A stretch of DNA of 64,000 nt from Marinifilum caeruleilacunae (GTDB taxonomy: Bacteria > Bacteroidota > Bacteroidia > Bacteroidales > Marinifilaceae), in NCBI RefSeq assembly GCF_013141825.1, contig NZ_RZNH01000002.1, positions 215,522-279,521 of the forward strand, written 5' to 3'. Below the pieces are notes generated by a model that was not told where the DNA came from, ran no database searches, and saw nothing but the letters and a program-made list of their open reading frames with translations. Each line of letters opens with the position of its first letter. The stretch's first letter is position 1. A program made the translations under genes and the position numbers. Below, one piece after another: positions 10,316 to 29,211 of this stretch.

Positions 10316-10351
10316 TAAGAGTTGGTTGGATCATCGTAAATCTAATCCCTC

Positions 10352-12697: not shown

Positions 12698-12774
12698 CTT
12701 GATAGCAGGTAAGTTTTTTGTTCTATGCTTTTAAACAATTAAGATAGAAATATGTTTGCAATTATTAACTGTTT

Positions 12775-12807
12775 ATAAACAAGAAAGGAGCCCTAAAAAA
12801 GGGCTCC
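12775..12807 (-). terminator. Terminator closing the polyferredoxin-SusCD-protease operon
   Basis: GGAGCCC (12787-12793) pairs with GGGCTCC (12801-12807) around TAAAAAA; on the minus strand it is followed by a T-rich tail (TTTCTTGTTT). It lies between the 280-residue lipoprotein gene and the TonB receptor gene. Confidence 0.85.
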
Positions 12808-12861
12808 TACACGATAACACTAACTAAATCAGATGTTCTAATAAAACCAAAAATTAGAACT

Positions 12862-13704
12862 CTAATGCTTTTTGTTCTTTACATATCTTTTATACAGACT
12901 ATATGCGTTATCCCAGTTCATACTTACCAAACGAACCTGTTCAGGATTCAAATTCATCATATAATCGGCCTGAGTTTTTCTCATTTCGATAAAATCCTTG
13001 TTCGAATCTTCGAGCATTCCCTTACCAATGATAAACAGATCTTCCGATATACCGATTTCTTCACCCTTGCTAATGGTAATGTGATACAAATTGTCCTTTA
13101 CCTCAGTTTTTGCCAATAACCTTTTAAAAGCTCCCTGAAACATTTGAGCTGCTACCTTTTTTTGCTTGTCGGTAGCATCTTTTACTTTCTCAAAATCTAC
13201 CTTCAAAAAGAAAAAGTATTTGTATTTCTCATGACGTTTTACCGCAGCGAACAAATCTTTGGCAGCACACCCATAAATTTGAACAGAATCTTTACCATGC
13301 TTAATATACAGGCGATTTCGAACATCTTCCATTACCTGCTTTTTTACAGGACCTTTAGTAGTTTCGCTCTTTAAAAATTCCAGGAAGTAATATGGGCGCT
13401 CAAAACCATATTTTTTCGCTTCAATCTTGGCCTCTTCGGGCGATAACATCAGGTTTTTTCCCAATTGGTACCACGAATAATTATCGATATAGAATCGGTC
13501 GTTGGCAATTTTTTCTGCCTTAAACTCTTCAATGCTTTGTCCTCTAGCACTAAGCAAACGAGCTGAATCGTGTTTGTTTACGGTATAGGAATTGATTTCC
13601 TTATCGAAATCAGCCTTAAACTTTGCAATATAAGCCTCATGGTCGTAAGAATTACACGCCGCAACAAGCAAGCTTAATACCAGTAAAATATGTGAATGTT
13701 TCAT
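12862..13704 (-). CDS. Lipoprotein of unknown function with SPEEAK module
   Basis: A 280-residue lipoprotein (lipobox LVAAC, Cys17; mature start CNSYDHEA). I do not recognise the family. The mature region is helical and lysine-rich, with a segment LSPEEAKIEAKKYGFERPYY (about residues 87-106) followed by an acidic/basic helix. The same segment, with the same order of residues, occurs in the 203-residue secreted protein encoded at 26872-27483. The gene is the last of the minus-strand operon, 74 bases after the S46 peptidase, and is closed by the terminator at 12787-12807. Its position suggests a surface or periplasmic accessory to the proteolysis/uptake system; this is inference. Confidence 0.7.
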   Translation of the reverse strand: MKHSHILLVLSLLVAACNSYDHEAYIAKFKADFDKEINSYTVNKHDSARLLSARGQSIEEFKAEKIANDRFYIDNYSWYQLGKNLMLSPEEAKIEAKKYGFERPYYFLEFLKSETTKGPVKKQVMEDVRNRLYIKHGKDSVQIYGCAAKDLFAAVKRHEKYKYFFFLKVDFEKVKDATDKQKKVAAQMFQGAFKRLLAKTEVKDNLYHITISKGEEIGISEDLFIIGKGMLEDSNKDFIEMRKTQADYMMNLNPEQVRLVSMNWDNAYSLYKRYVKNKKH

Positions 13705-13778
13705 AAGTAAATTGTTTAATAGGCTTCGTTATTGTTTTTCAAAATTCTACAGCATCTCTTGCACCCTAAATTTCCGCA

Positions 13779-15938
13779 CTACTTCCACTCTTCGAGCAAA
13801 TTGTCGGCATGCAGCTGATGTTCCAGAACGAATCGAATGTATCGGATATCAACAGCAATATGGCGGGTTAATTCAGGCATATATTTGTAATCGCCAACCA
13901 AGCCATTTCCTGCACGGTCGAAATTCAAACCAATTATTTTTCCCTTGGCATTCAATACCGGACTTCCCGAGTTTCCACCTGTTGTATGGCTATTGCTGAT
14001 AAAACAGGTTGGAATGGCCTTTTTCGATTCTTTTATGGCCTTCTTGCAGGTATCGATATAAGCTTGAGGTGCTGCATACACTTTAGGGTCTTTGCTGTTT
14101 TTTTCTACCAACTCATTCAAATAAGCAATAGGAGCATAATTTTTGCCATCATCCTCAATTCCTAAAATATTACCGTAGGATACTCGTAAAGACCTGTTGG
14201 CATCGGCAATAATTTTTTGCCCGGCCATCATTTCCTTTTTGGCCTGTAAGTACTTGTTGTGATACTTGCCATACTCTTTTCTGATATCCACACGTTGGCG
14301 ATATACCATATCCTTATTGATTAGAAAGTAACTCAGGCACAAATCAAACACAGGATCATTTTGTAGTTTCTTCGCATCTTCCTTTGTGAAGTACTTCAAA
14401 AACTCATTCAATTTCTCTTTCGAAGCAAACATTGAATTGCTGAAAGCATCATCGATATATCGATCGAAATTGCCATTGTATTTGGCTCTGGCCTCTATAA
14501 TAGGTTTTGGCTTGTACTTATCACCCACATTTTCGTCATAAAGTTTCACCAATGTTTTCAGGAATTCTTTTTCTGTTTCCAGATCATAAGCATTAAAGAA
14601 GTTGGAAGCTTCCACTCTTAATCGTCTCAACTCTTTGTTCAGGCGTTTCTCATTTACATTCTTTCGCGAGGCAATTGCATTCAACATGTCGAATTTTCCA
14701 GCAAAAGAAACAAAATTACCCCCTTTTATTCCACCTTCGAATACATACATATTCAGCTTTTCAATGGTATCCAAACGGGCAACACAATCCTCAATTCCCG
14801 GAATCACTTCTGCATATTTCTTTTTCAACTCTTCCGAAGAATTTATCCATTGGGTAAAGGCTTCCTCTTCCTTCCTTTTCAGATTCACAAGGTCCAGTTT
14901 CTCGATTCCACGAAGCTCGGCTTTCCATCTCAGCAAACTGTTCGATGTTTTTGCCATAAAATCTGAATACTTTAACCACAGATCTTCATTCTTGTTCATG
15001 GCCTTGCTAATAATCTCCATTTTGGCCTCTCTGATTTTGATGCCATGATAGTTCGTTACTTCAGCAATTTGCTGAACTGCACGAGCCGTTAAATATTGCT
15101 TGGTACTACCCGGAAAGCCGTATACCATGGCAAAATCACCCTCCTTATATCCTTTCAATGATAATTCCAAATGGTTTACAGGTGTAATTGGCTCGTTTGC
15201 AATTGAATATCTTAAAGACTCATGATTAGCATTTCCATAGACTCTTAGAACAGCAAAGTCAGCCGACTGGCGAGGCCATCTCCAGTTATCGCTTTCACCT
15301 CCAAATTTTCCCAAAGCCAATGGAGGCATAGCTACAATTCTTACATCGCGATAAATCTCGTACACCTCAAGAAACATCTGCGTTCCACCAAAATACGATT
15401 TCACCTTAACTTTGTAATGATTTCCTTCTCTTACCTTTTTGGAAATCTCCTTGGCTCTCTTATCAACCAAACGACTCTTTTCCACATCGCTTAATGATTC
15501 AGTTCCTTTCAGAAGGTTTTCAGTCACATCTTCCAGGCGAACAAGACGTGCCAGAGTTAAACCTTTGGCTGGCAGTTCATCTGTTTTATTCTGCGCATAA
15601 AAACCATCTCTCATGTAGTTCAATTCTTCGCTGCTGTGCTTGTGCAAATAACTCACCACAGTATGATGGTTGGTCAATACCAATCCACTTTCAGAGATAA
15701 ATGATCCGCTACCAGTAAAAGTGGTAGGATTACTTTTGCTACCCAATCCGAGTATGGCATCTTTCAGGCATATTTTATTGATATCGTAAACATCTTCGGC
15801 AGACAATTTAAATCCTGCCTTTTTCATGTCTTTGATATTGTATTTCTTTAGTAATGAAGGAATCCACATTCCCTCGTCTGCTTTCACCGATGCTGCTGAT
15901 AACAGCAGGCAAATCAACAATAATTTAAATCTTAGCAT
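13779..15938 (-). CDS. S46-family dipeptidyl peptidase, DPP11-like specificity
   Basis: A 719-residue exported serine peptidase (signal peptide about 1-20, VKA-DEG), normal length for DPP7/DPP11. Family S46 features are present: N-terminal GMWIPSLL, TNHH around residue 91 with the catalytic His, SDNWRWPRQSADFAVLRVY with the Asp, and GGNSGSP with Ser657. The residue 18 after the Ser is Arg675 (GLNFDR); this corresponds to position 673, where Arg gives DPP11 preference for Asp/Glu at P1 and Gly gives DPP7 preference for hydrophobic residues. It would release acidic dipeptides in the periplasm or at the surface. Lies 94 bases downstream of the metalloprotease gene in the Sus-type operon. Confidence 0.93.
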   Translation of the reverse strand: MLRFKLLLICLLLSAASVKADEGMWIPSLLKKYNIKDMKKAGFKLSAEDVYDINKICLKDAILGLGSKSNPTTFTGSGSFISESGLVLTNHHTVVSYLHKHSSEELNYMRDGFYAQNKTDELPAKGLTLARLVRLEDVTENLLKGTESLSDVEKSRLVDKRAKEISKKVREGNHYKVKVKSYFGGTQMFLEVYEIYRDVRIVAMPPLALGKFGGESDNWRWPRQSADFAVLRVYGNANHESLRYSIANEPITPVNHLELSLKGYKEGDFAMVYGFPGSTKQYLTARAVQQIAEVTNYHGIKIREAKMEIISKAMNKNEDLWLKYSDFMAKTSNSLLRWKAELRGIEKLDLVNLKRKEEEAFTQWINSSEELKKKYAEVIPGIEDCVARLDTIEKLNMYVFEGGIKGGNFVSFAGKFDMLNAIASRKNVNEKRLNKELRRLRVEASNFFNAYDLETEKEFLKTLVKLYDENVGDKYKPKPIIEARAKYNGNFDRYIDDAFSNSMFASKEKLNEFLKYFTKEDAKKLQNDPVFDLCLSYFLINKDMVYRQRVDIRKEYGKYHNKYLQAKKEMMAGQKIIADANRSLRVSYGNILGIEDDGKNYAPIAYLNELVEKNSKDPKVYAAPQAYIDTCKKAIKESKKAIPTCFISNSHTTGGNSGSPVLNAKGKIIGLNFDRAGNGLVGDYKYMPELTRHIAVDIRYIRFVLEHQLHADNLLEEWK

Positions 15939-15965
15939 TTCAATTTCAGTTGTAGGTTTCCCTGT

Positions 15966-15987
15966 TTGATGAATATGAATTCATCAA
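15966..15987 (-). other. Intercistronic hairpin between metalloprotease and S46 genes
   Basis: TTGATGAAT pairs with ATTCATCAA around a 4-base loop. No T run follows, so it is more likely an mRNA processing or stability element than a terminator. Confidence 0.5.
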
Positions 15988-16032
15988 TTATCTTTTCAAT
16001 TCGCTTAATTCTGTACTTGTATGAACTGTATT

Positions 16033-18384
16033 TTAGTTCAGGATATATGTTAGGAAGGTGAAATGCTTTTTCACTTCTTCATTCCCTTTTTCTGTTTTTT
16101 TACTTGCCATATTTTTTACAGCATTCAACTCAGCTTTAATATCAGCCATGATCAAATTATTAAATACATGCCCCCCATCTTTGGCATTGTCTTCTAGCAA
16201 TTTCTGTAAGCCTTTCACGTATTCAACCTGTATATTTCTCATCCAGCTTGTTGCCTGTTTCTTGCTCGAAACCGAAAATACACGTTCTGTGATATCGCTT
16301 AAATATTCGCTAACTGCATAAGGATCGGTCGACTGACTCGAACAGGTATACATTCTCACCAAAACAGCCCTGTTGATTAATCGATTGATGATTTCACCTT
16401 GCGATTTCATAATTTCCCGATCCAAACTTCCCAGCCTTCTCTCAAACTCATTGGTTTTCATCCAGTCGTACTGACTCAATAACTCATCCATGATGTAATC
16501 CAAAGCCTCCTTCTGTTTGTCTCGACTTACCGCTACATATTTTTCAGGATGTGTTTCGTTGGTTACATCGAACTCATACATCCCGCCAAGGCGCGCTTCG
16601 GCATGTTTAAAATACCTGTTGTATTGTTTGATCACTCCTTCATACATCCATTCCAAATGATTGTTTCCAAGCTCATCGGCGGCAGTCCATTCCACAAGGT
16701 TTTTCATAATTAGCTTGGTGTTTGCCGCACCATAACGACTGGCTTTTATCACATCATTTCCTAAAGATTCTGTCAATACCGAAGGATCCAACATGCCATC
16801 ACCCATTCCATTTTTGGTGCCAAACAGGTACATATCATCATTGCTTCTCTCTTCGAACCATTTGTTCAGTGTTGCCTTTTCTTCTTCAGCATTATCGGCA
16901 TTATAAATAGGTTGGTAAGCCCATTTAATGGCAAAATAATCGTATACTCCCAGTAAAGGAGGTGTTAAGCTTACTCCTTTATCTTTTGGCTGTGCGATAT
17001 AATTGTTTCGGGCATAATCCATAATCGAAGCGGCCGTTCCGTATTTTTTTGTAAAACTTGCCGAACGCAATGAATCTACCGGATAAGCATAGGAAGCACG
17101 ATAGTTGTGTTTCATCCCCAGGCAGTGTCCTATTTCGTGAGCAGCTGCGTATCGAATTAGTTCGCCAAGGATCTCATTTGGCACATTTTCCATATTTCCC
17201 CTGATTGCAGGATCGTTAGCCGCAGTCTGAGAAAAACGCCACTGATACAATTTGCTGATTACATTGTGATAGAAAAGCACATCGCCCTGAAGAATTTCAC
17301 CCGAACGCGGATCAACCCAGTGGTTGCCCATGGCATTTGCTTTATCGGTTGTGATGTATCTAAAACATGAATTGGTAAAATCATTGGCATGGAAAGTTGT
17401 ATCGTTTACCGGATAATCTTTTGCTATGATTGCATTCTTAAATCCAATGGCTTCGAATGCCATTTGCCAGTCTTCAATACCAGCTTTAATATAAGGTTTC
17501 CATTTTTCAGGAATCGAATTGTCAACGTAAAATACAATTGGTTTCTTAGGTTCAACCAATTCGCCATTCTGGTGGCGTTTCTCATCTTCTTTTTTGGCTT
17601 CGAGCCTCCATCTTTTAATATAGGTGTAGGATTTAACATCCATATATTCAGATGATAATTCTTTTCTTACTTCTTCGTAATAATTTATCTGCGAACTCCC
17701 TAAACGAGGACGCATTGGTTTTTTGGGAAGCAACACAATAGAGCGATGTAAAGAGCACATAAATTGTTTGCGTTTTCCCATAAATCCCATCTGGCTAACA
17801 ATTTCAACATTGCTATCATAAGCTCGTGCTTCAATGGTTTTTGTAGCTTCAGGAATTACTTTTCCCCTGCTCCCGCCTCCAAAAGGTGAAATCTGAGGAA
17901 TCTGATTGTTAAAGAATTTTGTTACATCGATAACCGATGCATTGTTTTTTGCATTTCTGGCTTCTATTTTAAAAGCAGAATAAATGGTTTGAACATTGTT
18001 TCGATTGAATGAAATACTGATTGGATCGTTTGGATCCATCTGCTTTTCCAGGCTAATAACATGTAGGTAAACAGCTTTGGCATCCTGACTGAATTGCACC
18101 AACATTGGGTTGTGCATCATTTGCCCCGCCACTGCACTCCTGGTAGAACTAATTTCCTCTACCCTGCTGCCAATTAACAAATCTCTTCCCATAATGCTAT
18201 CAGGAATTTCGAGCCACAGCTTGCTGTCATTCATGTGTACGCTTATAAAACCGCTGTCGCTGATATCAGCCTTATTAAGCAAAGGCTGGTACTTTTTAGC
18301 CAATGCCGCATAATTGCTTTGAGCACTTGCCGAAATGCTTAGTGCCAAAATGAAGAAAAGAGTTGATAATGTAAATCGAAACAT
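16033..18384 (-). CDS. Zinc-dependent metalloprotease (DUF5117/DUF4953, metzincin type)
   Basis: A 783-residue exported protein (signal peptide about 1-21, ending SAQ). The N-terminal half resembles DUF5118/DUF5117 (KADISDSGFISVHMNDSKLWLEIPDSIMGRDLLIGSRVEE). At about residues 415-425 lies the metzincin zinc site HEIGHCLGMKHN (HExxHxxGxxH), followed further on by SIMDYARNNYI with the Met-turn. The family has unknown natural substrates but the complete site predicts an active secreted endopeptidase. It follows the Calx-beta-like lipoprotein gene after an 86-base gap that contains a terminator-like hairpin, and precedes the S46 peptidase, so endoproteolysis and dipeptide release would follow each other. 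Confidence 0.9.
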   Translation of the reverse strand: MFRFTLSTLFFILALSISASAQSNYAALAKKYQPLLNKADISDSGFISVHMNDSKLWLEIPDSIMGRDLLIGSRVEEISSTRSAVAGQMMHNPMLVQFSQDAKAVYLHVISLEKQMDPNDPISISFNRNNVQTIYSAFKIEARNAKNNASVIDVTKFFNNQIPQISPFGGGSRGKVIPEATKTIEARAYDSNVEIVSQMGFMGKRKQFMCSLHRSIVLLPKKPMRPRLGSSQINYYEEVRKELSSEYMDVKSYTYIKRWRLEAKKEDEKRHQNGELVEPKKPIVFYVDNSIPEKWKPYIKAGIEDWQMAFEAIGFKNAIIAKDYPVNDTTFHANDFTNSCFRYITTDKANAMGNHWVDPRSGEILQGDVLFYHNVISKLYQWRFSQTAANDPAIRGNMENVPNEILGELIRYAAAHEIGHCLGMKHNYRASYAYPVDSLRSASFTKKYGTAASIMDYARNNYIAQPKDKGVSLTPPLLGVYDYFAIKWAYQPIYNADNAEEEKATLNKWFEERSNDDMYLFGTKNGMGDGMLDPSVLTESLGNDVIKASRYGAANTKLIMKNLVEWTAADELGNNHLEWMYEGVIKQYNRYFKHAEARLGGMYEFDVTNETHPEKYVAVSRDKQKEALDYIMDELLSQYDWMKTNEFERRLGSLDREIMKSQGEIINRLINRAVLVRMYTCSSQSTDPYAVSEYLSDITERVFSVSSKKQATSWMRNIQVEYVKGLQKLLEDNAKDGGHVFNNLIMADIKAELNAVKNMASKKTEKGNEEVKKHFTFLTYILN

Positions 18385-18423
18385 TTGTTGTTATTTATAG
18401 TTCTGTGGGTTGTTTCTGTTTGT

Positions 18424-18461
18424 TGAAAAAAGGATAAGTGACCGGCTTTCGCCGATCACTT
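18424..18461 (-). terminator. Intra-operon terminator or attenuator after the lipoprotein gene
   Basis: On the minus strand AAGTGATCGGC pairs with GCCGGTCACTT (one U-G pair) closed by a GAAA tetraloop, followed by ATCCTTTTTTC. It is a full rho-independent terminator by form, so the downstream peptidase genes are probably expressed by partial read-through at a lower level than SusC/SusD/lipoprotein, or from a promoter of their own. Confidence 0.75.
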
Positions 18462-18470
18462 TTAGTTGAA

Positions 18471-20018
18471 TTATTTCCAGTTGATGTACTTAATTCTCAT
18501 TGTATAAGTATCTCCGTCATTCGAAATATAATATTTAGGATCAATCTCGAAGTCATCATCAGAACATGTGAATGTAATATCTACAATAATTTCTTTGCTT
18601 GTAGCATTAAATGTTCCTACTGATCTTTCTACAGTAATTGTAGCAGGTGTTACTTGTGAAGATTTAGAGATGTCTCCACCATTTAATTTAGAATCAGCAT
18701 ACCACCAGTAATAATACTTTGATTTAATTTCTCCATTAACATCAACATCAACGTAAGTTTTAGCTTTCCAGGCATCAATATCATTTGCTTTATAAACAGT
18801 TAATGTTTGAGCAGGAACAACAACGTCACCAGTTGTAGCATTTACTTCCTTGGCTGCAAAACGGAACCATCCAGTTTCCGATTTGATTTGAGAAGAGTTA
18901 GAGCTATAAACCGCTTCGTTATCAAAAAACTTGGTCAATCCCAGGTAATCACCACCTTGATATTCTGTTCTTTCAAAATCTGTAGTATAAACAAATTTAC
19001 CACCAACTTTATGCTCAAATGTATTTGTTACATCAGTCCATTGGTTACCATCAGTTTCTGAAACATTCAATACATTACCTCTCGATAAAGATTTCCAATC
19101 TTCAGCAACAGAATCCCAATAGTATCTTTTTGTCCAATATGCCATATTGGATTTAAATACATAAGTGTCTGTAGTATTGTCTTCTCTAAAACCAGTGTAG
19201 TCGTTAGTTTCGTTAAACCATACAGAAAAATCAACCTGTGGATCAACAGCATTAATTGCGAAAGTATTCTCAGTAGCTTTCACAGCATAATCGGTTACCG
19301 ATGGAGCAGCAAAACCAAAAGTTACAGTTTTGTCCATATCAACCACGGCAGTATTTTTCATTGTTACAGTAAAGTCTGCTGAAACCGATCCGGCCGGAAT
19401 TGTAATTGCATTGTTGCTTAAACCAGCAATTTCATAATCTGTATCAGCAACTAAATCTCCATCGATAGTCAATGGAATTACAAGATCAGAAGCATAAGTT
19501 TTGCTCAAACCAACTGTAATGGTTTTCACCTCTTCCATATATGGATTAGTTACAAAATCAGATGTTCCAAAAGAAACCTCAGGAGCATCCGAAGGAGGAT
19601 TAGCATTGTCAACAATGGTGATGTTTACATTTGCAGGAGTAGACAATTCATAACCTGTACCTGCTTGTAGTGCAATTGCCAATGTTTTGCTTGCTTCAAT
19701 GGCTGAAACATTAATTGGGTTAACAAAAATGTTAGCCGTAGTCTGGTTTGCAGGAATGGTTACAGTTTTTGCAATATCCTGGAAGTTTACACCTTCAACA
19801 GCAGTTCCCGATAAAGCAATACCTACAGTGTATGCAGTTTCAAGAGGAGCATCAGCATTTACTTTTACAAGCAAAGCAGAAGTAGCTGTTTCCGAAATTT
19901 CGATTGCATCAGCAGTCAATGATAGTTTTGGGATGATTGGATCATCATCGTCACTACAACTTGCTAAAATTAGCGCAGCTACCATTAGCCACATCATGTT
20001 TAAATAACTCTTTTTCAT
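18471..20018 (-). CDS. Calx-beta-like surface lipoprotein of Sus operon
   Basis: A 515-residue lipoprotein (lipobox ILASC, Cys21) whose mature start is CSDDDD; an acidic stretch directly after the lipidated Cys fits the lipoprotein export signal that places Bacteroidota proteins at the cell surface. Residues about 30-250 form two or more beta-sandwich repeats of Calx-beta type (ETATSALLVKVNADAPLETAYTV; VTIPANQTTANIFVNPI; ITIPAGSVSADFTVTMK). The C-terminal half (about 260-515) is rich in Tyr/Trp and unfamiliar. It occupies the SusE/F-like position downstream of SusD and most likely helps bind the substrate outside the cell. Confidence 0.82.
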   Translation of the reverse strand: MKKSYLNMMWLMVAALILASCSDDDDPIIPKLSLTADAIEISETATSALLVKVNADAPLETAYTVGIALSGTAVEGVNFQDIAKTVTIPANQTTANIFVNPINVSAIEASKTLAIALQAGTGYELSTPANVNITIVDNANPPSDAPEVSFGTSDFVTNPYMEEVKTITVGLSKTYASDLVIPLTIDGDLVADTDYEIAGLSNNAITIPAGSVSADFTVTMKNTAVVDMDKTVTFGFAAPSVTDYAVKATENTFAINAVDPQVDFSVWFNETNDYTGFREDNTTDTYVFKSNMAYWTKRYYWDSVAEDWKSLSRGNVLNVSETDGNQWTDVTNTFEHKVGGKFVYTTDFERTEYQGGDYLGLTKFFDNEAVYSSNSSQIKSETGWFRFAAKEVNATTGDVVVPAQTLTVYKANDIDAWKAKTYVDVDVNGEIKSKYYYWWYADSKLNGGDISKSSQVTPATITVERSVGTFNATSKEIIVDITFTCSDDDFEIDPKYYISNDGDTYTMRIKYINWK

Positions 20019-20042
20019 GTGTTAATAGATTTTTGATTATTC

Positions 20043-20070
20043 GATCTTCCCAAGGGGATCCGGGAAGATC
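20043..20070 (-). other. Intercistronic hairpin between SusD and lipoprotein genes
   Basis: GATCTTCCC (20043-20051) pairs perfectly with GGGAAGATC (20062-20070) with a 10-base loop. No T tract follows, so it is likely an RNA stability or processing element after susD. Confidence 0.55.
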
Positions 20071-20099
20071 TTATGTTAAAACTTAATTATCTTTAAATA

Positions 20100-21542
20100 T
20101 TAGTATCCCGGATTTTGAACCATATTTGGATTTCCTTCAATTGCATCTTCTGGAATTGGCAGAACAAATAAATCGCTTGGATAATCGACATTTACATTTT
20201 GAGTAGCATTACAATCCACTCTTCTCAAGTCTCTTCCCATTCTTACAATATCAAAGAACAAATGCCCTTCAAAAGCCAATTCTCGTCTTCTCTCCAGGAA
20301 AAGTTCTTCTTTTAAAGCAGCTCCTGACAATTGTAGGTTTGTAGCATTGGGATTTGCACGTTTGCGAATGACGTCTAAGTCGGCACGAGCCTGCACCTCA
20401 TCTATTGCTGGTAGATTAAGAGAAGCTTCTGCTCTAATCAGGTACATTTCAGCCAAACGTACCACTGGGATATAATGGTCTTTATCGGCCATTTCTGTCC
20501 ATTTAGCAGTTAGAGATTGTACAACATCTTTTGCTTCTTGCTCGCCAAATAGTTGTTTTCTTACATCTTCATCATCATACAAGTCAATAATATCATTGCT
20601 TGGCAGCAAGTAAAAACGATCTCTGTTTTCACTGATTCCAATTCTATCCGACAAGGGAGCAGCATTATTGCGACCTCCATTATCAATCGCAAAAAGATCT
20701 TCGTTAGTAGGTGTATTGTTCGAATAGTAATCTAAAACTTCCGAATTTGGCAGTAAAGAAGCACTACCACTTTCTATAACTTTCGTAGCATATTCTCTAG
20801 CTTTGTCCCAATCGCTCTTGTACAGATAAACTCTTGCCAAAAGAGCCTGAGCTGCAACCTTAGACATATAGAACTTTGCCGACTTTGCTTCTTCTACCCC
20901 AATTGCGGTTCCTAAATTCTGCTCAGCTTCCAAAAGATCTGCAATAATGTTTTCGTAGTTATCGTAAAGCAAATCACGACTGGTTAATTCGTGGTAAGCA
21001 ATATTTTTTTGCAGATATGGAATTCCTAAATGCTGAGCATTAGCGGTGTAAGAATATGGTTGTGCATATAGCCTGGCCAAATCGAAATGTGCCAATGCAC
21101 GAATTGCTTTTGCTTCTGCCACAGCTTGTAACTTTTGAAGATCACTTGCATCCTCCACGTAATCAATATTTTCAATCACCATGTTTGCAGCACTAATCAC
21201 TTCATAAATCTGTCCGTAACATCCATCAAAGTAATCATCTTCTCCTTCAACTGTATGCGTAAATTCAAATGCTGGGATATAGTAGAATGAAAATGGACTT
21301 TCAAAATTAAGGTCGTCAATTTTCAAATTTCCACCTTTAACTTCGGCAGCCATAATCATTTGAGTTCCGTAATAATTAGTTGCTCCCATTTCGTAATATG
21401 CGCCATTCAAAGCCTCTTCAACTCCACTTAGTGTAGAAAATAATCTATCATTAGATATTTTTGTTTCATCATCGATATCCAAAAAATCGGAACATGAAGC
21501 AAAACCTAATGCCAATAATCCTATGTATATTAATTTTTTCAT
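20100..21542 (-). CDS. SusD/RagB-family surface lipoprotein
   Basis: A 480-residue lipoprotein (FASC, Cys17; mature CSDFLDIDDE). SusD features: the N-terminal SNDRLFSTLSGVEEALNGAYYEM, the helical RALAHFDLARLYAQPY, and the C-terminal RagB motif EELFLERRRELAFEGHLFFDIVRMGRDLRR. It forms the substrate-capping lid on the SusC transporter at the outer surface. It starts 25 bases after the susC stop. At 480 residues it is on the short side for carbohydrate-type SusD, and no CAZyme is nearby; two secreted peptidases in the operon instead suggest a peptide or protein-derived substrate. Confidence 0.93.
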   Translation of the reverse strand: MKKLIYIGLLALGFASCSDFLDIDDETKISNDRLFSTLSGVEEALNGAYYEMGATNYYGTQMIMAAEVKGGNLKIDDLNFESPFSFYYIPAFEFTHTVEGEDDYFDGCYGQIYEVISAANMVIENIDYVEDASDLQKLQAVAEAKAIRALAHFDLARLYAQPYSYTANAQHLGIPYLQKNIAYHELTSRDLLYDNYENIIADLLEAEQNLGTAIGVEEAKSAKFYMSKVAAQALLARVYLYKSDWDKAREYATKVIESGSASLLPNSEVLDYYSNNTPTNEDLFAIDNGGRNNAAPLSDRIGISENRDRFYLLPSNDIIDLYDDEDVRKQLFGEQEAKDVVQSLTAKWTEMADKDHYIPVVRLAEMYLIRAEASLNLPAIDEVQARADLDVIRKRANPNATNLQLSGAALKEELFLERRRELAFEGHLFFDIVRMGRDLRRVDCNATQNVNVDYPSDLFVLPIPEDAIEGNPNMVQNPGY

Positions 21543-21567
21543 ATCTATCTCCTTTTAAACTTCATGA

Positions 21568-24555
21568 TTAAATCCCCAGCTTTAACTGAAAAGCAACTGT
21601 TCTGGACTGTGGGAATGGGTAACGGTATTCGGCCAATCCATTTCTGCCTGATTTTCCTCCCTCTTTGTACCATGTATAAACATTTGAAACATTCACTCCA
21701 AGCGAAGCATTGGCCAATCTCATGGAAGAACACAAACTTTTTGGAAGGTTGTAGTGTAGAGCAATTGAACGAACCGAAACATTGGATTGATCGAACAAAA
21801 ATCGGGTACTGTAGGCATTGTATTTGATATCCTTATCCAATCTAGGAATATCAGTACGGTCACCAGGTTTTTGCCACCTGTCCAATAAATTCACACTTTT
21901 ATTGTAAATATTCAGTGTCTTGATATTTTCCATATCCCTGGCAGGGTAAGGCATCATTTTATCAGCTCCATACTCAAAGGCAATCATGAATGAAAGGTTA
22001 AAACCTTTATAATTGAAATTGTTTGAAAAACCACCTGTAAAATCAGGATTGGACTTCCCTATGATTTGCTTATTATCAACCCCAGATAAATCACTAGGAT
22101 CTTTTGTGATGCTTCCGTCTTTCATTTTCCATTGCGGATCACCTGTATTAGCATCAACACCAGCATAAACATTTCCCATAATTAAAGAAGTAGATTCACC
22201 GACAATTAATCCGGCAGTTCCCGAAACAAATCGCTCAGAATAAAGTGCCAATTTGTCTAACCTACTCTTATTAAAACCAATATTAAAGTTGCTGTTCCAT
22301 TGTACTTTTCCAAGCATAATATTACTTGCCTTCAAAGTAAATTCCAGACCATAATTCGTCAAATCAGCCGTGTTCACAGAAATAATATTCCATCCCGTTT
22401 CCGGTACCACATTCAATGAAAGGATACCATCTTTGGTTTTATTGTTATAATACTCTGTCTCAAGAGTAAATTTTCTCAAGAACTTCACAATCAAACCTGC
22501 ATTAAACTTATAGGATTGTTGCCATCCTAAGTCTTCATTAGGAGCGGCATATGGTTGAGCAATTAATTTCCCATTATAACTGGAGGATGTGCTATAACTA
22601 TATAATCCTCGAGCCGAGTATGATCCTACTTTCGCATTTCCCAACTTTCCGAAAGAAGATTTCAACTTCACGAAATTGATGATATCATTCTCTATCCAAA
22701 AGTTCTCTTTTGAGATAATCCATGAGCCACCAATGGAAGCGAAATTTTCCACTTTTTGATCTCCTCCAAAGTAGGATGATGCATCGGAACGGAAGTTCAT
22801 TGACAAGAAATATTTCTTTCCAAAGTCATAATTGAATCGACCATAGTAAGATCTCATTGCACTTTCACTCTCCGATGAACTTACTGAACTGTCTTCATCA
22901 TCACCATTTCCTGGAATACGAATCTTTTCCGAAACCAAATTCTCTTCTGAAACAGATGTTTGGTTTCGCTCATCATGTTTTAGCTGAATACCGGCAGTGG
23001 CGCCGAATGAATGTTTTTTTACCGATCCGTTATATTCCAATTGTGTATAAGTAACCCAATTATTATTCTCGGTACGTTTTTCTTTGATTACTCCATTCTT
23101 TTTACGGCCCCTTCCATTTTCTTTCGAATAAAAGGAGTATTGTTTGGTGTTGGTATAATCCAATCCAAACATACTTGATGAACTAAAGTTTTTCGAAATC
23201 TTCACCTTCAGGTTTAAACTGTTATTCGAGTAGAACTTCTCAGACTCATTGGTATTCTGAGCCAAATCTGCCAATGGATTGGCATAAGTCTCCATCTGAG
23301 TATATTTTCCTTCTTCATCGTACACCGGAATATTTGGTTTGTATGCATAGGTTGCAAAAGCTGCATACTTCTCCGATTTAAAACTACTTATACCACCACT
23401 GTATGATAATCTTACTCCTTTCGCCAATTCAGTATCCAAACTCAAGCGAGAAATAATTGACTCCGAATCATTTCCTTTTGTGGTTGTTTCATTGTCTTTG
23501 TAGCCAAACGACAAACGATATGTTGTTTTATCGGAACCTCCAGAAATATTCAAATTGGTTTGGTGCGCCACTGAATTTTGCAATGTCAGATCACGCCAAT
23601 TCGTATAAACATCCGTACGACCAACTTCTTCTGGAATACTTTCCTCTGAATAACCCGAATTTCGATAATACTCAGTAGCCAATTCAACATACTGATCGGT
23701 ATTTAAATATTCAATTTTATTAATAGGTGTACTTAATAAGGTTTTGTGGGAGATGTTGACCCTGGTTTTCCCTTTCACCCCTTTCTTAGTGGTAATGATT
23801 ACTACACCATTTGCCGCATTTGCACCATAAATCGCTGCTGCAGAAGCATCTTTCAATATGGATACCGATTCAATATCCTCCGGATTAATCAAGGCTAACG
23901 GATTGATGACTATCTGATCATCAGCAGCAGCACCAGATTTCTGATCAACATTTGGGTTTAATGCATCAACCAAAGGCACTCCATCCAAAATATACAATGG
24001 CTCACTTGAAGCTGTAATATTCGAACCTAAATCAGGCAACGAGTTATTCCCACGAATACGCACTTTTACCGGACTGTTCGGGTTTCCATCATCCGACTCC
24101 AAATACACACCAGCAACCTGTCCTTCCAACATTTGGTCGACACTTTGCGCATTACTGTGCTTTAACAATTCGTCTGATTTTACCTGCTCTACCGAACCTA
24201 CAACAGCTTCGCGCGATTTTACGCTACCGTATCCCAGTACTACCACCTCGTTCAGTTTCTGGTCTGCCGATTTTAGCTGCACGTTGATTACTTTCTGCCC
24301 TTTTACCGGAATAAATTGGGTTTCGTAACCAATGAATGAAAACATCAGTTCAGCATTCGCTTTGCTTACTTTTAAAGTGAATTTTCCATCGAAATCGGTG
24401 GTTACGCCATTCGATGTGCCTTTTTCTAGCACAGTAACACCTGGTATGCCAAGCTTATCGCCTGCATCGGTAACTGTTCCTGCTACTGTTAGTCCCTGGG
24501 CAAAAAGCTGGAACTGCAGTAAAACAAGAAGTGCTATTAAATAGATTCTTACCAT
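21568..24555 (-). CDS. SusC/RagA-family TonB-linked outer-membrane transporter
   Basis: A 995-residue TonB-dependent transporter: signal peptide about 1-20 (LFAQG), CarboxypepD domain about 24-105 (VAGTVTDAGDKLGIPGVTVLEKG), plug with SusC-type motifs NEVVVLGYGS, VRIRGNNSL, PLYILDGVPL, and DIESVSILKDASAAAIYG, then a barrel ending VAFQLKLGI. It moves the substrate offered by SusD into the periplasm using TonB energy. It starts 31 bases after the stop of the polyferredoxin gene, so the two share a transcript. The MVRIYL start is the only in-frame ATG ahead of the signal sequence. Confidence 0.95.
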   Translation of the reverse strand: MVRIYLIALLVLLQFQLFAQGLTVAGTVTDAGDKLGIPGVTVLEKGTSNGVTTDFDGKFTLKVSKANAELMFSFIGYETQFIPVKGQKVINVQLKSADQKLNEVVVLGYGSVKSREAVVGSVEQVKSDELLKHSNAQSVDQMLEGQVAGVYLESDDGNPNSPVKVRIRGNNSLPDLGSNITASSEPLYILDGVPLVDALNPNVDQKSGAAADDQIVINPLALINPEDIESVSILKDASAAAIYGANAANGVVIITTKKGVKGKTRVNISHKTLLSTPINKIEYLNTDQYVELATEYYRNSGYSEESIPEEVGRTDVYTNWRDLTLQNSVAHQTNLNISGGSDKTTYRLSFGYKDNETTTKGNDSESIISRLSLDTELAKGVRLSYSGGISSFKSEKYAAFATYAYKPNIPVYDEEGKYTQMETYANPLADLAQNTNESEKFYSNNSLNLKVKISKNFSSSSMFGLDYTNTKQYSFYSKENGRGRKKNGVIKEKRTENNNWVTYTQLEYNGSVKKHSFGATAGIQLKHDERNQTSVSEENLVSEKIRIPGNGDDEDSSVSSSESESAMRSYYGRFNYDFGKKYFLSMNFRSDASSYFGGDQKVENFASIGGSWIISKENFWIENDIINFVKLKSSFGKLGNAKVGSYSARGLYSYSTSSSYNGKLIAQPYAAPNEDLGWQQSYKFNAGLIVKFLRKFTLETEYYNNKTKDGILSLNVVPETGWNIISVNTADLTNYGLEFTLKASNIMLGKVQWNSNFNIGFNKSRLDKLALYSERFVSGTAGLIVGESTSLIMGNVYAGVDANTGDPQWKMKDGSITKDPSDLSGVDNKQIIGKSNPDFTGGFSNNFNYKGFNLSFMIAFEYGADKMMPYPARDMENIKTLNIYNKSVNLLDRWQKPGDRTDIPRLDKDIKYNAYSTRFLFDQSNVSVRSIALHYNLPKSLCSSMRLANASLGVNVSNVYTWYKEGGKSGRNGLAEYRYPFPQSRTVAFQLKLGI

Positions 24556-24586
24556 AGACTTGTTATTTAATTGATTTTAGCGTGGG

Positions 24587-26458
24587 TTAGTTTGTAAGTT
24601 TAAATTTGAAAGGGTTTGCCACCTGCTCGCTTTCTCCATTGGTATACACCAAAGTCATCTCTTCTTTTGCTGCCCATTCTACCATTTCATCAGGATTAAC
24701 TTTATCCTGGATGTAGAAGAATCGAACGGTTGGTTGTGCCTGGTAATCGGCATGAATACCAACAACTCCCTTGTATTTTTTAGCTACGTGATTTGACAAC
24801 TCCTTAAACTTGTTTTCGTTTTTCGGGAAATCTTCCAATACCAGCATGATTGATCGTAATTGCTCTCTTGGGTAAGATTTAAAGTTGTTAAATGTTGCCT
24901 TGTGTTTCTTAAAGGTTCTCTTCATCAATCCAATTCCGTTGATTGGCACATTAGATTTTACCACGTCTTTTACCTCGTACGGATAGCTTCTTCTGTGTTT
25001 AATCGATGTAATCAACTTTTCGATTTTCGATTCACTCATTTCCGAATCACAGAAAGCCAATAATCTGATTTCTGTATCGAATTGTGTTTCCAATTGGTAG
25101 ATGCCTTCATTCTGAAGTGCCTCAGCCATAATTTTCAAATCGGCTTCGGTCAAATACTTGGCTACACGAAGTTTATGAACTGCAAGTTCCTGATCAAGCT
25201 TAGGAGCTTTTACAAATTGCTTCGATCGGGTGTAAAGCATTTTTCGAATGCTCAACTCGTCAATCTTGGTGGTATCGTAAGTAATTTCGGCTTTGTGATC
25301 GCTGATGTAAGTATTTACACCAAGAACTCCATCTACCTCTTTCATTTGGCGTACAAATCCCATAGAGCTGCTAAAGCAGGTCAAATGGCTCATGTGTTCG
25401 ATGGTAAATTCTTTCGACTGGTCCATTTCGGTAGTATTACCCCAGGCTTTAGAAACTGTTGGCAAATTGTACTGACTTGCAATTACCAATCCGGCAATAA
25501 ACAAAACAACTACCAATACCGATGGTAACCATTTTACATTCAGTTTTTCATTTAAGGTCAATGCTCCATCTTTCGGACAAGCTGAAACACAATCGCCACA
25601 AATGTTACAGTCCGGGTGTTTCACCATTTCCATATCTGCTACATCAATTCCCTGTGGGCAGCTTCTTGAACACAATCCACAATCGATACATGTGTGTGTA
25701 TGGCGCGTAATTTTTAATACAGATTGTTGTTTGGTTTCCACTTTCAGGATTTCCAACACATAACCCACCAGGCAGATAATTCCAACAATAATACTGATAT
25801 CAACACCTACTTCGAAGAAGTACATTGAGCCTAAAATGGCTACTACTACTCCTACTCCTATCCAATATTTAAAAATGTTTGATATCGCACCAAGCGGACA
25901 CAGGTACTTACACCAGAACAATCTAAATACTATGGAGCCTAAAATAAATATAGAAATAGAGATTGTTGCGAAAAGGTAGTTTACCCTGTGACCGTATAGT
26001 GTGATACTTGTATAAAAAGGATCGTATTGTTTACAAAACAGTTCACCGGTTTTTAAGGTAATGGTTAGGGTAAAGAACAGAAGAATGTATTTTAAACTTC
26101 TTAAGGCTTTATCGGTAACACCATTAATATCTCTTCTAATTTTAAAGCGATCTGCTGCTTTTCCAATTGCTTCCGATACCGTTCCCAGCGGACAAAGATG
26201 ACTACAAAACAGTTTACCCAGTACCAATACAGTAAATAAGAATACTGCACCCAATACCATTTGGGTTACTGTCATATTACAAGCGATTAATCCATCCTGC
26301 ATTAAAGTTAGAATGGCTTGAATTCCCCCCATTGGACAATATGTCTCAAAATCGACTACACTTAAGCCTAGCTGATTTCCGATAAAGAACAGGATAATCA
26401 GAGAGAGTACAGAAAACTGTAAAATGTTTCTGAATAGGCTAACTCGTTTTTTACTCAT
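24587..26458 (-). CDS. Membrane polyferredoxin (NapH/CcoG-like) with HMA-like C-terminal repeats
   Basis: A 623-residue membrane protein. Residues about 12-30, 65-82, 122-138, 160-178 and 200-238 are membrane segments, with NapH/NosR/CcoG-type Cys pairs between them (FCSHLCPLG, Cys85/Cys89; WCKYLCPLG, Cys183/Cys187). Residues 257-267 and 284-294 are two CxxCxxCxxxC[P] motifs for [4Fe-4S] clusters. After another TM (313-327) comes a heavy-metal-associated-like fold, residues about 350-410 (EFTIEHMSHLTCFSSSMGFV), in which the CxxC reads CFSS with only Cys361 left. Two further beta-alpha-beta units follow (about 428-490, 535-600). It probably passes electrons across the inner membrane and may reduce or handle a metal. 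It is the first gene of the SusCD-protease operon, which is unusual. Confidence 0.85.
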   Translation of the reverse strand: MSKKRVSLFRNILQFSVLSLIILFFIGNQLGLSVVDFETYCPMGGIQAILTLMQDGLIACNMTVTQMVLGAVFLFTVLVLGKLFCSHLCPLGTVSEAIGKAADRFKIRRDINGVTDKALRSLKYILLFFTLTITLKTGELFCKQYDPFYTSITLYGHRVNYLFATISISIFILGSIVFRLFWCKYLCPLGAISNIFKYWIGVGVVVAILGSMYFFEVGVDISIIVGIICLVGYVLEILKVETKQQSVLKITRHTHTCIDCGLCSRSCPQGIDVADMEMVKHPDCNICGDCVSACPKDGALTLNEKLNVKWLPSVLVVVLFIAGLVIASQYNLPTVSKAWGNTTEMDQSKEFTIEHMSHLTCFSSSMGFVRQMKEVDGVLGVNTYISDHKAEITYDTTKIDELSIRKMLYTRSKQFVKAPKLDQELAVHKLRVAKYLTEADLKIMAEALQNEGIYQLETQFDTEIRLLAFCDSEMSESKIEKLITSIKHRRSYPYEVKDVVKSNVPINGIGLMKRTFKKHKATFNNFKSYPREQLRSIMLVLEDFPKNENKFKELSNHVAKKYKGVVGIHADYQAQPTVRFFYIQDKVNPDEMVEWAAKEEMTLVYTNGESEQVANPFKFKLTN

Positions 26459-26871
26459 AAGATTAGATTGATTTTTGATTTCAACCGAAAAGTGGGAAAT
26501 GATGCAAACCCAGGCGCTGCATTTTGGAATATGGGACTTTTAGAACCGTATCAAATTGGATAATGACACCTCCATCTATCTCTTTATCTGCACCTTGCCT
26601 TTTTAAGTGGATTCGCTCTAAAATATGTCTGACATCTTACTGTTTTGAACCATTCTATACTACTCTCTCGTTTTTCTCCTTTTAGCACTTTCATCTTATT
26701 CTATTTTTTCACAAAATCACCAGGTATTTCCTTTTCTTAAAATGGTGTTGCAAATTTGAGAGAATTGACTTGGCTATGCAATCGCATGATTGTGGTATTT
26801 TTTTTAAACAAAAAGGCAGAAAAAAAGCCTGTACAATAAATACAGGCTTCTCTGTTTACTCTTCTTAAAAA
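26459..26871 (-). other. Leader/intergenic region upstream of the polyferredoxin operon
   Basis: 413 bases without a gene. It should contain the operon promoter, but no convincing TAnnTTTG box was found on the minus strand. A small inverted repeat CAATC-4-GATTG lies at 26779-26792. The upstream end holds the terminator of the 203-residue gene. Confidence 0.5.
26815..26849 (-). terminator. Terminator of the 203-residue secreted protein gene
   Basis: AAGCCTGTA (26825-26833) pairs with TACAGGCTT (26841-26849), loop CAATAAA, followed on the minus strand by TTTTTTTCTG. It separates this gene from the operon below. Confidence 0.88.
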
Positions 26872-27483
26872 TTATCTTCTGGTTCTGCGCTCTTTCATTC
26901 GTTGTTCCCTCACTTTTAGAAAATCCTCAATTCTTTTGGGGTTTATCTTTAGAGCTTCGCTTAAAAATTTTCGTTGATTCAACTCGGCAACATTTGATCT
27001 CTCACTGGCCTTTGCAACTTTATCGCGCAAGTCCTTCATGAATTGTTTCATTTCATCGTCCCATTTATCTTTATGAAACCTGAAATACTCATAAAACCTG
27101 TATGGATGTTTAAAACCTCTCTTTTCAGCCATTTGCTTTGCCTCTTCCGGAGTAATCCATAAATAGTAACTCGATTTTAAATGACTATAGGTAATACGAT
27201 TTGAGGCAATTCTTCCCTGATCCCAATTCCCAAATTCCCCCACTAATACAACTCCCAAAGAGTCTTTCCATGAATCTATTCTTTCTGGGATAAATCTAAA
27301 CTTAGTTACGATTGAATCAAACTTTGCAGAAGGAATATTTATTTTATAATCTTTATTCAAATGCTCATATTCATGTGTCAGGTAGTCGTAATCCAGATAC
27401 TCTTGTGGAATTTTTCGAGGCTGCTGCTGAGCGCTAATCGTCAATGAAATTAGTAGTAGTGAAAATACAAATAGAATTCTCAT
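26872..27483 (-). CDS. Secreted protein with SPEEAK-like module, related to operon's last gene
   Basis: A 203-residue exported protein (signal peptide about 1-18, ISAQ). The mature part is charged and helical with a basic tail (MKERRTRR). Its segment WITPEEAKQMAEKRGFKHPY (about residues 108-127) aligns with LSPEEAKIEAKKYGFERPYY in the lipoprotein at 12862-13704, including spacing and the following aromatic/acidic helix (KQFMKDLRDKV versus KQVMEDVRNRL). I do not recognise the family. It has its own terminator, so it is a separate unit on the same strand, directly upstream of the polyferredoxin operon; shared ancestry with the last operon gene suggests a common role. Confidence 0.7.
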   Translation of the reverse strand: MRILFVFSLLLISLTISAQQQPRKIPQEYLDYDYLTHEYEHLNKDYKINIPSAKFDSIVTKFRFIPERIDSWKDSLGVVLVGEFGNWDQGRIASNRITYSHLKSSYYLWITPEEAKQMAEKRGFKHPYRFYEYFRFHKDKWDDEMKQFMKDLRDKVAKASERSNVAELNQRKFLSEALKINPKRIEDFLKVREQRMKERRTRR

Positions 27484-27723
27484 AAGTAAATGTTTTTGTT
27501 ATTTATTTTGATATTAACTCAATATAGTCAGTATATTATGCGGGTTTCACCTCACAACACACTCCTTAAAATTATTAACTTAAAATAACAAAAGGGTTAA
27601 TTAAAAAACCATGATTTTCACTTAACAGATTCTATAAATATGTATCATTTCACAAAATGACACCTTCTATTGGCTCACATTATGAATTTTAATCGATTAA
27701 ATAGAACTTCTCTAAATTCTGTA

Positions 27724-28836
27724 TTAAGATTTCGATTTGATATACTCGGTAGGTGTGATATCGTGAAATTGTTTAAATACACGATTGAATGAAGATTTTG
27801 AATTGAAGCCACAATCGAAGGCCAGGTATAGTAAGGTTTTGTCTTCGTGAGCTTTTTGCTCGATCAAGTGTATAAAATAGTTAATGCGATAAGAGTTGAT
27901 AAAATCGGAATAAGATCGATTGGCACTTCGGTTAATGGCCTGAGAAATGGTATGCTCTGGCACATCAATCATAGCTGATAATTTTCGAAGCGTTAAGTCT
28001 CCATCTTTGTAAACCTCTTTTTGCTCTATAAATTCACAAATCTGTTGAAACTGTTCATCGTACGGATTTTCATCATCTACAACCACCTGTTCTCTGGAAT
28101 TGTTTGCTGCTGGAGCAACAAGTGCAACACTTAAAGGATGAGCAAAAATGTAGGAATACTTCGTGTATATATATACAAATGAGATGACAAAAACAGAAAC
28201 GATAATATTAATCAACATCACCTGGTCGATTACAAAATGAACACCATTGGATCCCAACAATTTGATCAGAAATACCACCGACAACAAAATGAGCACTCCA
28301 TTACCAATACTGCTGATCCATTTTACTCCATAAGGATTTCCTTTGGTAAAGGATTTATTCTTTTGAACTTTCAAAATCATAATATAGCCCGTTAATACAT
28401 AAGCCAAAATGATTAAGAATTTCATGTAAACAGAAATAACAGCATAGATATTATCGGAATGCGAACAACCGCCTTCTTCCAAACAATCGACCAAACCTAA
28501 AGATTTTGTGGTGGTTTTGTATCCCATGTAAATTCCGAAAGGAATCAGGTGAAGCAGGTGCTTCTTTCCGAAAGAAAAATCAGGATTTACAAGACTTAGT
28601 ACATAGAAATAGAACATTGTACCATGCAATACATGACTGGCACAAGCAAACTCGTAAACCCAATGAAAATCGTGAAACAAATTTTGAGAAGACAAAAAGA
28701 AGGTTACTTCGGCAAGCGCAACAAGGAAAAGCCAGAAAGTGAAAATTTTATCGGACAGGTGATTTGCTTTACGCGACATGATAGACACCATAAAAAACAC
28801 CAGGATGGCCAAACAAATCACAAACAAATAATCCAT
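27724..28836 (-). CDS. Membrane-anchored AraC-family transcriptional regulator
   Basis: A 370-residue protein. Residues 1-230 contain about seven hydrophobic helices (LFVICLAILVFFMVSIM; IFTFWLFLVALAEVTFFL; KFLIILAYVLTGYIMIL; MLINIIVSVFVISFVYI). Residues about 260-368 are the AraC double HTH (LTLRKLSAMIDVPEHTISQAIN; LAFDCGFNSKSSFNRVFKQFHDITPTEY). This layout is common in Bacteroidota and suggests a regulator that senses a signal in or across the membrane. Its targets are unknown; the divergent K+ channel and the downstream polyferredoxin operon are the nearest candidates. Confidence 0.87.
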   Translation of the reverse strand: MDYLFVICLAILVFFMVSIMSRKANHLSDKIFTFWLFLVALAEVTFFLSSQNLFHDFHWVYEFACASHVLHGTMFYFYVLSLVNPDFSFGKKHLLHLIPFGIYMGYKTTTKSLGLVDCLEEGGCSHSDNIYAVISVYMKFLIILAYVLTGYIMILKVQKNKSFTKGNPYGVKWISSIGNGVLILLSVVFLIKLLGSNGVHFVIDQVMLINIIVSVFVISFVYIYTKYSYIFAHPLSVALVAPAANNSREQVVVDDENPYDEQFQQICEFIEQKEVYKDGDLTLRKLSAMIDVPEHTISQAINRSANRSYSDFINSYRINYFIHLIEQKAHEDKTLLYLAFDCGFNSKSSFNRVFKQFHDITPTEYIKSKS

Positions 28837-29211
28837 ACTCTACCAACTTCTCTTTTAATTACTTTCGCTTATTTGACTAGCAATGTTAACTATTTTTAAG
28901 CATTTCAACAACTTATAATACAAATTCTCAGACTACAATTCTCATCAAATCAGATAAATAAAAACATAATTGTAAATCTTTCAGGAGTAATACAAACATG
29001 AAACACCAATATAAATAAGCTTTAAAATGATGTTGTAAATGCTATGTTTTAAGAATTATAGCTCAATCTTAAAAAAAACATAAATTGGTAATACCAAAGA
29101 TTATCGCATACTTTATTGAAAATAAAATTATCGAAACTTAAAAGGTTCTACATTTGTAAAATAGAATCGCTATAAATTATATTTAAGAATTAATTAACAA
29201 ATCGATCATAC
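28837..29211. other. Divergent intergenic region
   Basis: 375 bases between the AraC regulator and the K+ channel. Very AT-rich. Only the candidate -7 box at 29149-29156 is recognised. Confidence 0.5.
29149..29156 (+). promoter_or_regulatory. Candidate -7 box of ion channel gene
   Basis: TACATTTG matches TAnnTTTG, 56 bases before the channel ATG. The -33 region is weak (TTATCG). Confidence 0.5.

Follow-up and report, generated by a model that had tools for sequence, protein, structure and literature searches.

Why does an operon that combines a SusC/SusD importer with peptidases begin with the gene for a membrane polyferredoxin? The question was raised by a 64,000-nucleotide stretch of Marinifilum caeruleilacunae DNA (contig NZ_RZNH01000002.1; here called the window), in which seven open reading frames, all on the minus strand, fill positions 12862-26458 with intergenic gaps of 31, 25, 81, 86, 94 and 74 bases. 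As an initial annotation of the bare sequence had described, with gaps given as 25-94 bases, the polyferredoxin gene stands first; it is followed by genes for SusC, SusD, a Calx-beta-like lipoprotein, a metzincin, an S46 dipeptidyl peptidase and a small lipoprotein. The answer we favour, as possible though a little short of probable, is reductive import: a peptide or peptide-like chelate would be taken up, its iron or copper freed by a periplasm-facing reductase, and the carrier degraded by the peptidases.

The polyferredoxin (24587..26458, minus strand; 623 aa) has 6-7 predicted transmembrane helices, and its two CxxxCP motifs and 2x[4Fe-4S] ferredoxin domain are predicted to be cytoplasmic. 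With PF12801 matched at 47.4 bits over two stretches, plus a Fer4 pair, it is a Fer4_5 membrane polyferredoxin. It shares this membrane part, the CxxxCP motifs and the 2x[4Fe-4S] domain with CcoG and the NapH/NosR-type polyferredoxins, and like them it likely transfers electrons at or across the membrane. However, membership of the CcoG or NapH type, as first proposed, was not borne out: the protein scored far under the curated cut-offs, with 17.3 bits for TIGR02745 (CcoG; cut-off 316.7) and 58.2 bits for TIGR02163 (NapH/MauN; cut-off 213), the latter model giving 68 bits with the homologue in locus L085. It also departs from both types in its invariant C41, C60, C142 and C361 and in its C-terminus, three tandem ferredoxin-like domains (residues 348-411, 421-510 and 528-623) predicted to be periplasmic. 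The first of these is clearly HMA-like, both in its beta-alpha-beta-beta-alpha-beta fold and in its similarity to HMA proteins, and its closest folds are the HMA domains of Cu ATPases and chaperones. The HMA metal site CxxC is absent, with Cys-x-x-Ser in its place, and C361 and S364 are invariant in all 55 polyferredoxin rows compared. Sixteen cysteines are invariant across the same rows, as are C85/C89/P90 and C183/C187/P188 of the two CxxxCP motifs; C41, C60 and C142 are predicted to be periplasmic. A narrow, title-level literature search returned no description of a polyferredoxin with an HMA domain, or of one with SusC and DPP11.

Matches to this protein below E 1e-100 were present in 18 of 57 genomes of the family, and 10 of these 18, the window included, carried the close form (relatives 55-90% identical). 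The gene order polyferredoxin-SusC-SusD-lipoprotein-metzincin-S46 was kept in 9/9 close-form relatives, which places the arrangement beyond chance. The last lipoprotein was found in six of the nine; of the other three, the L078 contig stops just after S46. Conservation of the polyferredoxin beside SusCD and peptidases had been named beforehand as the point on which the initial proposal would turn, and it was seen in these nine relatives, near SusCD in two other families and, for more distant forms, with S46 less than 7 kb away in 8/8 family genomes. The operon is accessory, and the polyferredoxin gene was absent from G430, a 99% complete genome of the same genus. Across the order, a 12-row alignment used as query at E 1e-20 found it in 42 of 393 genomes. 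A class sample yielded one match in 395 genomes at E 1e-30, that of the own genome, and none in the 14 other same-order genomes of the sample; a single-sequence search over this sample gave, beyond the window itself, partial weak matches only. Each wide search scored no more than a few candidates per genome. From the 41 other genomes of the order with a polyferredoxin, G733, G795, G457 and G742 (partial) and partial second matches were excluded, leaving 37 genomes with 40 loci.

The polyferredoxin recurred beside importers and S46. All eight distant polyferredoxins of the family (28-39% identical) had a DUF4876 lipoprotein, DUF6850, a TonB-dependent receptor and S46 within 7 kb. Among the 40 loci elsewhere in the order, the same distance held DUF4876 or DUF6850 in eight, S46 in six and a same-strand SusC in two, while 22 had no match to any feature searched; part of these stretches end early. 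Random placement, ignoring kinship, would put S46 near the polyferredoxin in 0.58 of the 40 loci, against the six observed. S46 of the SusCD type, being the sixth gene, is more than 7 kb away and so falls outside these counts. When DUF4876 loci of the family were compared, S46 lay within 7 kb in 8/8 with a polyferredoxin versus 0/16 without (Fisher 1.4e-6, uncorrected for kinship; the 16 were hand-picked from the listed places and are not all such loci), and an ABC transporter was present in 0/8 versus 10/16 (P 0.006). Divergent polyferredoxins are thus placed in receptor loci of the DUF4876/DUF6850 kind, to which BT3625-BT3633 (with PepSY_TM) and PG1019-PG1022 also belong, whereas the window uses SusCD.

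A midpoint-rooted polyferredoxin tree of 55 rows (omitting the near-copies L078, L081 and L088, L073 as a duplicate record of L140, and the partial, 336-aa L091) placed all SusCD-linked rows in one 11-row clade (100/99) covering three families, the eleventh row being on a 3.6-kb contig. SusCD- and DUF4876-linked rows fell together in a 34-row group (100/96), and a 12-row clade mixing rows of the family with others of the order had S46 in 11, the twelfth lying at a contig end. Genomes with a polyferredoxin carry 0-6 S46 genes, mostly 2-4. In a 48-row S46 tree, whose background was 20 hand-picked unlinked rows from 12 genomes, the 10 SusCD-type enzymes formed one clade (100/100) on a long branch, within an 18-row group with DPP11-like unlinked enzymes; of the 18 other polyferredoxin-linked enzymes, 15 formed another clade (100/100) and three lay elsewhere. 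S46 was thus joined to the polyferredoxin from more than one lineage. We regard this repeated pairing, together with the contrast of 8/8 and 0/16, as the strongest evidence for a putative functional link. The recurrent core, judged from gene neighbourhoods, is a polyferredoxin, a TonB-dependent importer and S46, with exchangeable parts (SusCD in three families, the DUF4876/DUF6850 receptor elsewhere).

The importer of the window consists of a SusC-type TonB-dependent outer-membrane transporter (21568..24555, minus strand; TIGR04056 over cut-off at 701 bits) and, adjacent to it, a SusD-type lipoprotein lid (20100..21542, minus strand; PF07980 and PF14322). The pair belongs to the same families as RagAB and other SusCD peptide importers, RagA being the third distinct Protein Data Bank match of SusC; unlike in RagAB, a redox protein heads the operon. 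In agreement with the initial annotation, no CAZyme family was among the Pfam matches of the seven operon proteins at E 0.1, and the locus is not a polysaccharide utilization locus in the sense of one that contains a CAZyme. Searched with the window SusC, G662 gave the polyferredoxin-linked SusC as best match (535 bits, next 290; 35 matches), as did G419 (37 matches). In G540 it came second (481 bits after 515, next 262; 30 matches), the higher-scoring SusC lying in a SusC-SusD-M16 peptidase locus where no polyferredoxin match was seen. The G662 locus (L131) runs polyferredoxin-SusC-SusD-lipoprotein-metzincin with a lipoprotein dissimilar to the window's, and ahead of these genes, at L131:4961-8803, a T9SS-sorted CotH-kinase/lamin-tail protein is encoded; in G540 (L130) a T9SS-sorted 1386-aa protein stands between polyferredoxin and SusC, and the stretch compared ends in SusD. 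The lipoprotein in the SusE position (18471..20018, minus strand) combines Calx-beta/Ig-like domains with an unassigned C-terminal region; the Calx-beta match, at 23.6 bits, stays below the 27 bits that Pfam requires. Its low-confidence model (mean pLDDT 57) matched Calx-beta pairs and Bacteroides surface lipoproteins, for which no ligand is named; a haem-binding fold was not among the structure matches of this model, which excludes nothing.

Both peptidases, the metzincin (16033..18384, minus strand; DUF5118/DUF5117/DUF4953 by Pfam, zinc motif HEIGHCLGMKH) and the S46 enzyme (13779..15938, minus strand), carry type-I-like signal peptides and, by sequence and Pfam, neither a lipobox nor a sorting domain. 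They are therefore likely to act in the periplasm after import, and not outside the cell where they had first been placed. Like DPP7 and DPP11, the S46 protein is full-length (PF10459, 588 bits over 695 positions) and retains the catalytic His/Ser motifs TNHH and GGNSGS; its closest solved chains are Asp/Glu-specific (DPP11-type) enzymes, and it falls on the DPP11 side of the tree. It differs from them in its long separate branch. At the acid-binding (FDR) site, Arg673 in the Porphyromonas DPP11, the window protein has R675, and the SusCD-type rows have Arg in 4/10 and Ser in 6/10. A search of one literature collection turned up no paper on DUF5117 or DUF4953.

Import and peptidase genes are divided by a conserved intercistronic RNA hairpin with a T-rich tail (-18461..18436; -19.3 kcal/mol, z -5.9), which lies between the Calx-beta lipoprotein and metzincin genes and is absent from the initial annotation. 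The homologous gap forms a hairpin in 10/10 loci. The eight distinct alignable hairpins were 100% paired, with three pairs changed on both sides; column shuffles gave a mean of 95.5% paired and 1.1 double-changed pairs, and 11 of 500 reached three. For this comparison the alignment was trimmed by hand around the stem; L081 is a copy of L080, and L082 has a hairpin whose sequence is unrelated. The window shows a clear T tail, but in several relatives it is weak, so the element could serve as an attenuator or in RNA processing or stability. Its presence makes a single transcript over all seven genes uncertain, and the unbroken co-transcription initially assumed is not supported.

How might these parts work together? 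By family, SusC, SusD and the surface lipoprotein would carry the ligand through the outer membrane, and the metzincin and S46 enzyme, located by their signal peptides, would trim the peptide in the periplasm. The polyferredoxin would move electrons from the cytoplasm or the quinol pool via its Fe-S centres out to the periplasmic side. There, C41, C60, C142 and the C361-bearing HMA-like domain would accept or bind a metal ion, Fe(III) or Cu(II), and reduce it; the reduced metal would then leave its peptide ligand. The domain architecture, predicted topology, conservation and recurring association are computed; a metal as acceptor, which metal it is, the direction of flow and the reductase activity we infer. 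More doubtful is the further suggestion that the protein represents a new class of periplasm-facing metal reductase, marked by tethered HMA-like domains, Cys-x-x-Ser, S46 partners from separate lineages and two alternative importers (SusCD or DUF4876/DUF6850), and confined here to one order.

The metal context comes from related loci. Sections of one report describe how iron depletion induces DUF4876-receptor loci in P. gingivalis and in B. thetaiotaomicron, the B. thetaiotaomicron locus including PepSY and an ABC transporter (PMC10434189); DUF4876 is under strong iron control in Bacteroidota of the mouth and gut. A second source, in the passages concerned, treats PepSY_TM proteins as periplasmic ferrisiderophore reductases, some encoded beside TonB receptors, and CcoG as a Cu(II) reductase (PMC13038864). 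The M. caeruleilacunae genome itself has, on contig C1 (L160:3363-18559), a separate DUF4876/DUF6850 receptor locus with an ABC transporter, a DUF4857-like protein, PepSY and flavodoxin, and also an RIC-like (iron-sulfur repair) protein below cut-off. This is likely the iron-starvation locus of the organism, and by analogy the polyferredoxin could be the reductase of a related, peptide-linked route. The HMA-like first C-terminal domain and the iron-starvation-induced DUF4876 loci of other genera speak for the metal-redox idea of the initial annotation, whose interpretation as a whole is partly supported.

Against reductive import weighs above all that the remaining 21 of the 55 polyferredoxin rows, which share the invariant residues, lack SusCD, DUF4876/DUF6850 and S46 matches as neighbours (18 lack any feature searched, two have an ABC match, and a TonB receptor was matched in one). 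A further point is that PepSY is not significantly depleted beside the polyferredoxin in the DUF4876 loci (1/8 versus 6/16, P 0.35), which weakens the analogy to the PepSY reductase; the two as alternatives is a suggestive idea, but one without statistical support. The unlinked rows would suit ordinary peptide utilization, in which SusCD and the peptidases supply the cell with amino acids and peptides and the polyferredoxin is a general periplasmic donor caught by ancestry and not acting on the substrate. The operon also lacks a metal gene, and in L085 and L086 the SusCD-metzincin operon lies beside, not inside, the polyferredoxin operon (L085:8593-20000 and L086:8454-20000, where SusC, SusD, several genes and the metzincin adjoin, on the opposite strand, a polyferredoxin-S46 operon). 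Yet the SusCD linkage covers three families as one clade, and one would not expect a passenger to follow the peptidase as the polyferredoxin does with separate S46 lineages and in the DUF4876 loci; we consider this explanation rather unlikely.

The remaining rivals concern what would be reduced. A copper variant of reductive import, whose odds overlap with it, has a copper-peptide imported and Cu(II) reduced; via the HMA-like domain the metal would then reach a copper importer that serves respiratory oxidases, a route suggested for CcoG and for CrpH, a PepSY protein. It would fit the nearest folds of that domain and the described activity of CcoG; however, CxxS replaces the CxxC of known copper HMA domains, the operon has no copper gene, and the only regulatory data on related loci, in the sections cited, concern iron (PMC10434189), so that we hold it to be unlikely. 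Slightly more unlikely still is that the polyferredoxin acts on redox groups of imported peptides, such as disulfides or sulfoxides, and by reducing them enables cleavage by the peptidases. Three invariant predicted-periplasmic cysteines and the single cysteine of the HMA-like domain would suit such thiol chemistry, and the polyferredoxin is tied more closely to a dipeptidyl peptidase than to any metal gene. However, known members of the HMA fold bind metal, iron regulates the related DUF4876 importers in other organisms, and no thioredoxin-like or Msr family was among the Pfam matches of the seven operon proteins.

If reductive import is true, the dipeptidyl peptidase tie points to peptides or protein fragments as the metal source, some SusCD loci without CAZymes gain a concrete function, and DUF4876 and DUF6850, both named as of unknown function in Pfam, gain a possible role. 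Known periplasmic metal-chelate reductases beside TonB receptors, as far as covered by the relevant part of PMC13038864, use haem (PepSY_TM), from which an iron-sulfur counterpart would differ.

Several polyferredoxin and receptor loci showed further features. L083:388-11656, with both PepSY and polyferredoxin, also encodes S46, a TonB receptor and a 152-aa protein rich in Cys and His, and may hint at the metal. DUF4876 loci L164 (1157-7734) and L169 encode three tandem, apparently secreted proteins of ~730 aa, and the one scanned (L164:5560-7734) matched nothing in Pfam or NCBIfam at the thresholds applied. Outside transporter loci, polyferredoxins often adjoin a divergent protein of ~320-370 aa (L121, L123, L126, L141, L143, L147, L155, L156, L158 and L159), which, judged by eye and by a motif, appears to resemble secreted endonuclease/phosphatase proteins. 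A link to ApbE flavinylation through this ~355-aa neighbour was rejected, its sequence being unlike ApbE; the parts of PMC11334425 that deal with flavinylation say nothing on it.

Turning to the operon ends, we found the predicted flanking terminators again as terminator-like hairpins, upstream of the polyferredoxin (-26853..26821) and at the operon 3' end (-12808..12786). Rfam gave nothing at gathering score in 10000-29000. The last gene (12862..13704, minus strand) encodes a small lineage-restricted lipoprotein without assigned family; a search of 393 genomes of the order at E 1e-5 found it in the own genome alone. Its SPEEAK domain is common with the signal-peptide-bearing product of the upstream gene 26872..27483 (minus strand; hhalign probability 95.6, E 1.2e-8, 78 columns), whose function is possibly related to the operon. 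This gene is upstream in 6/9 relatives, as is the gene for a membrane-anchored AraC-type protein (27724..28836, minus strand; PF12833), a candidate regulator. The leader 5' of the polyferredoxin gene (26459-26870) has conserved blocks in 8/8 compared genomes, including CACTTTTCGG just before the start; a pattern built from this block is present once in the own genome and gave no regulon there. After the operon terminator follows a second TonB-dependent receptor gene (10352-12697), which occupies the same place in 4/9 relatives.
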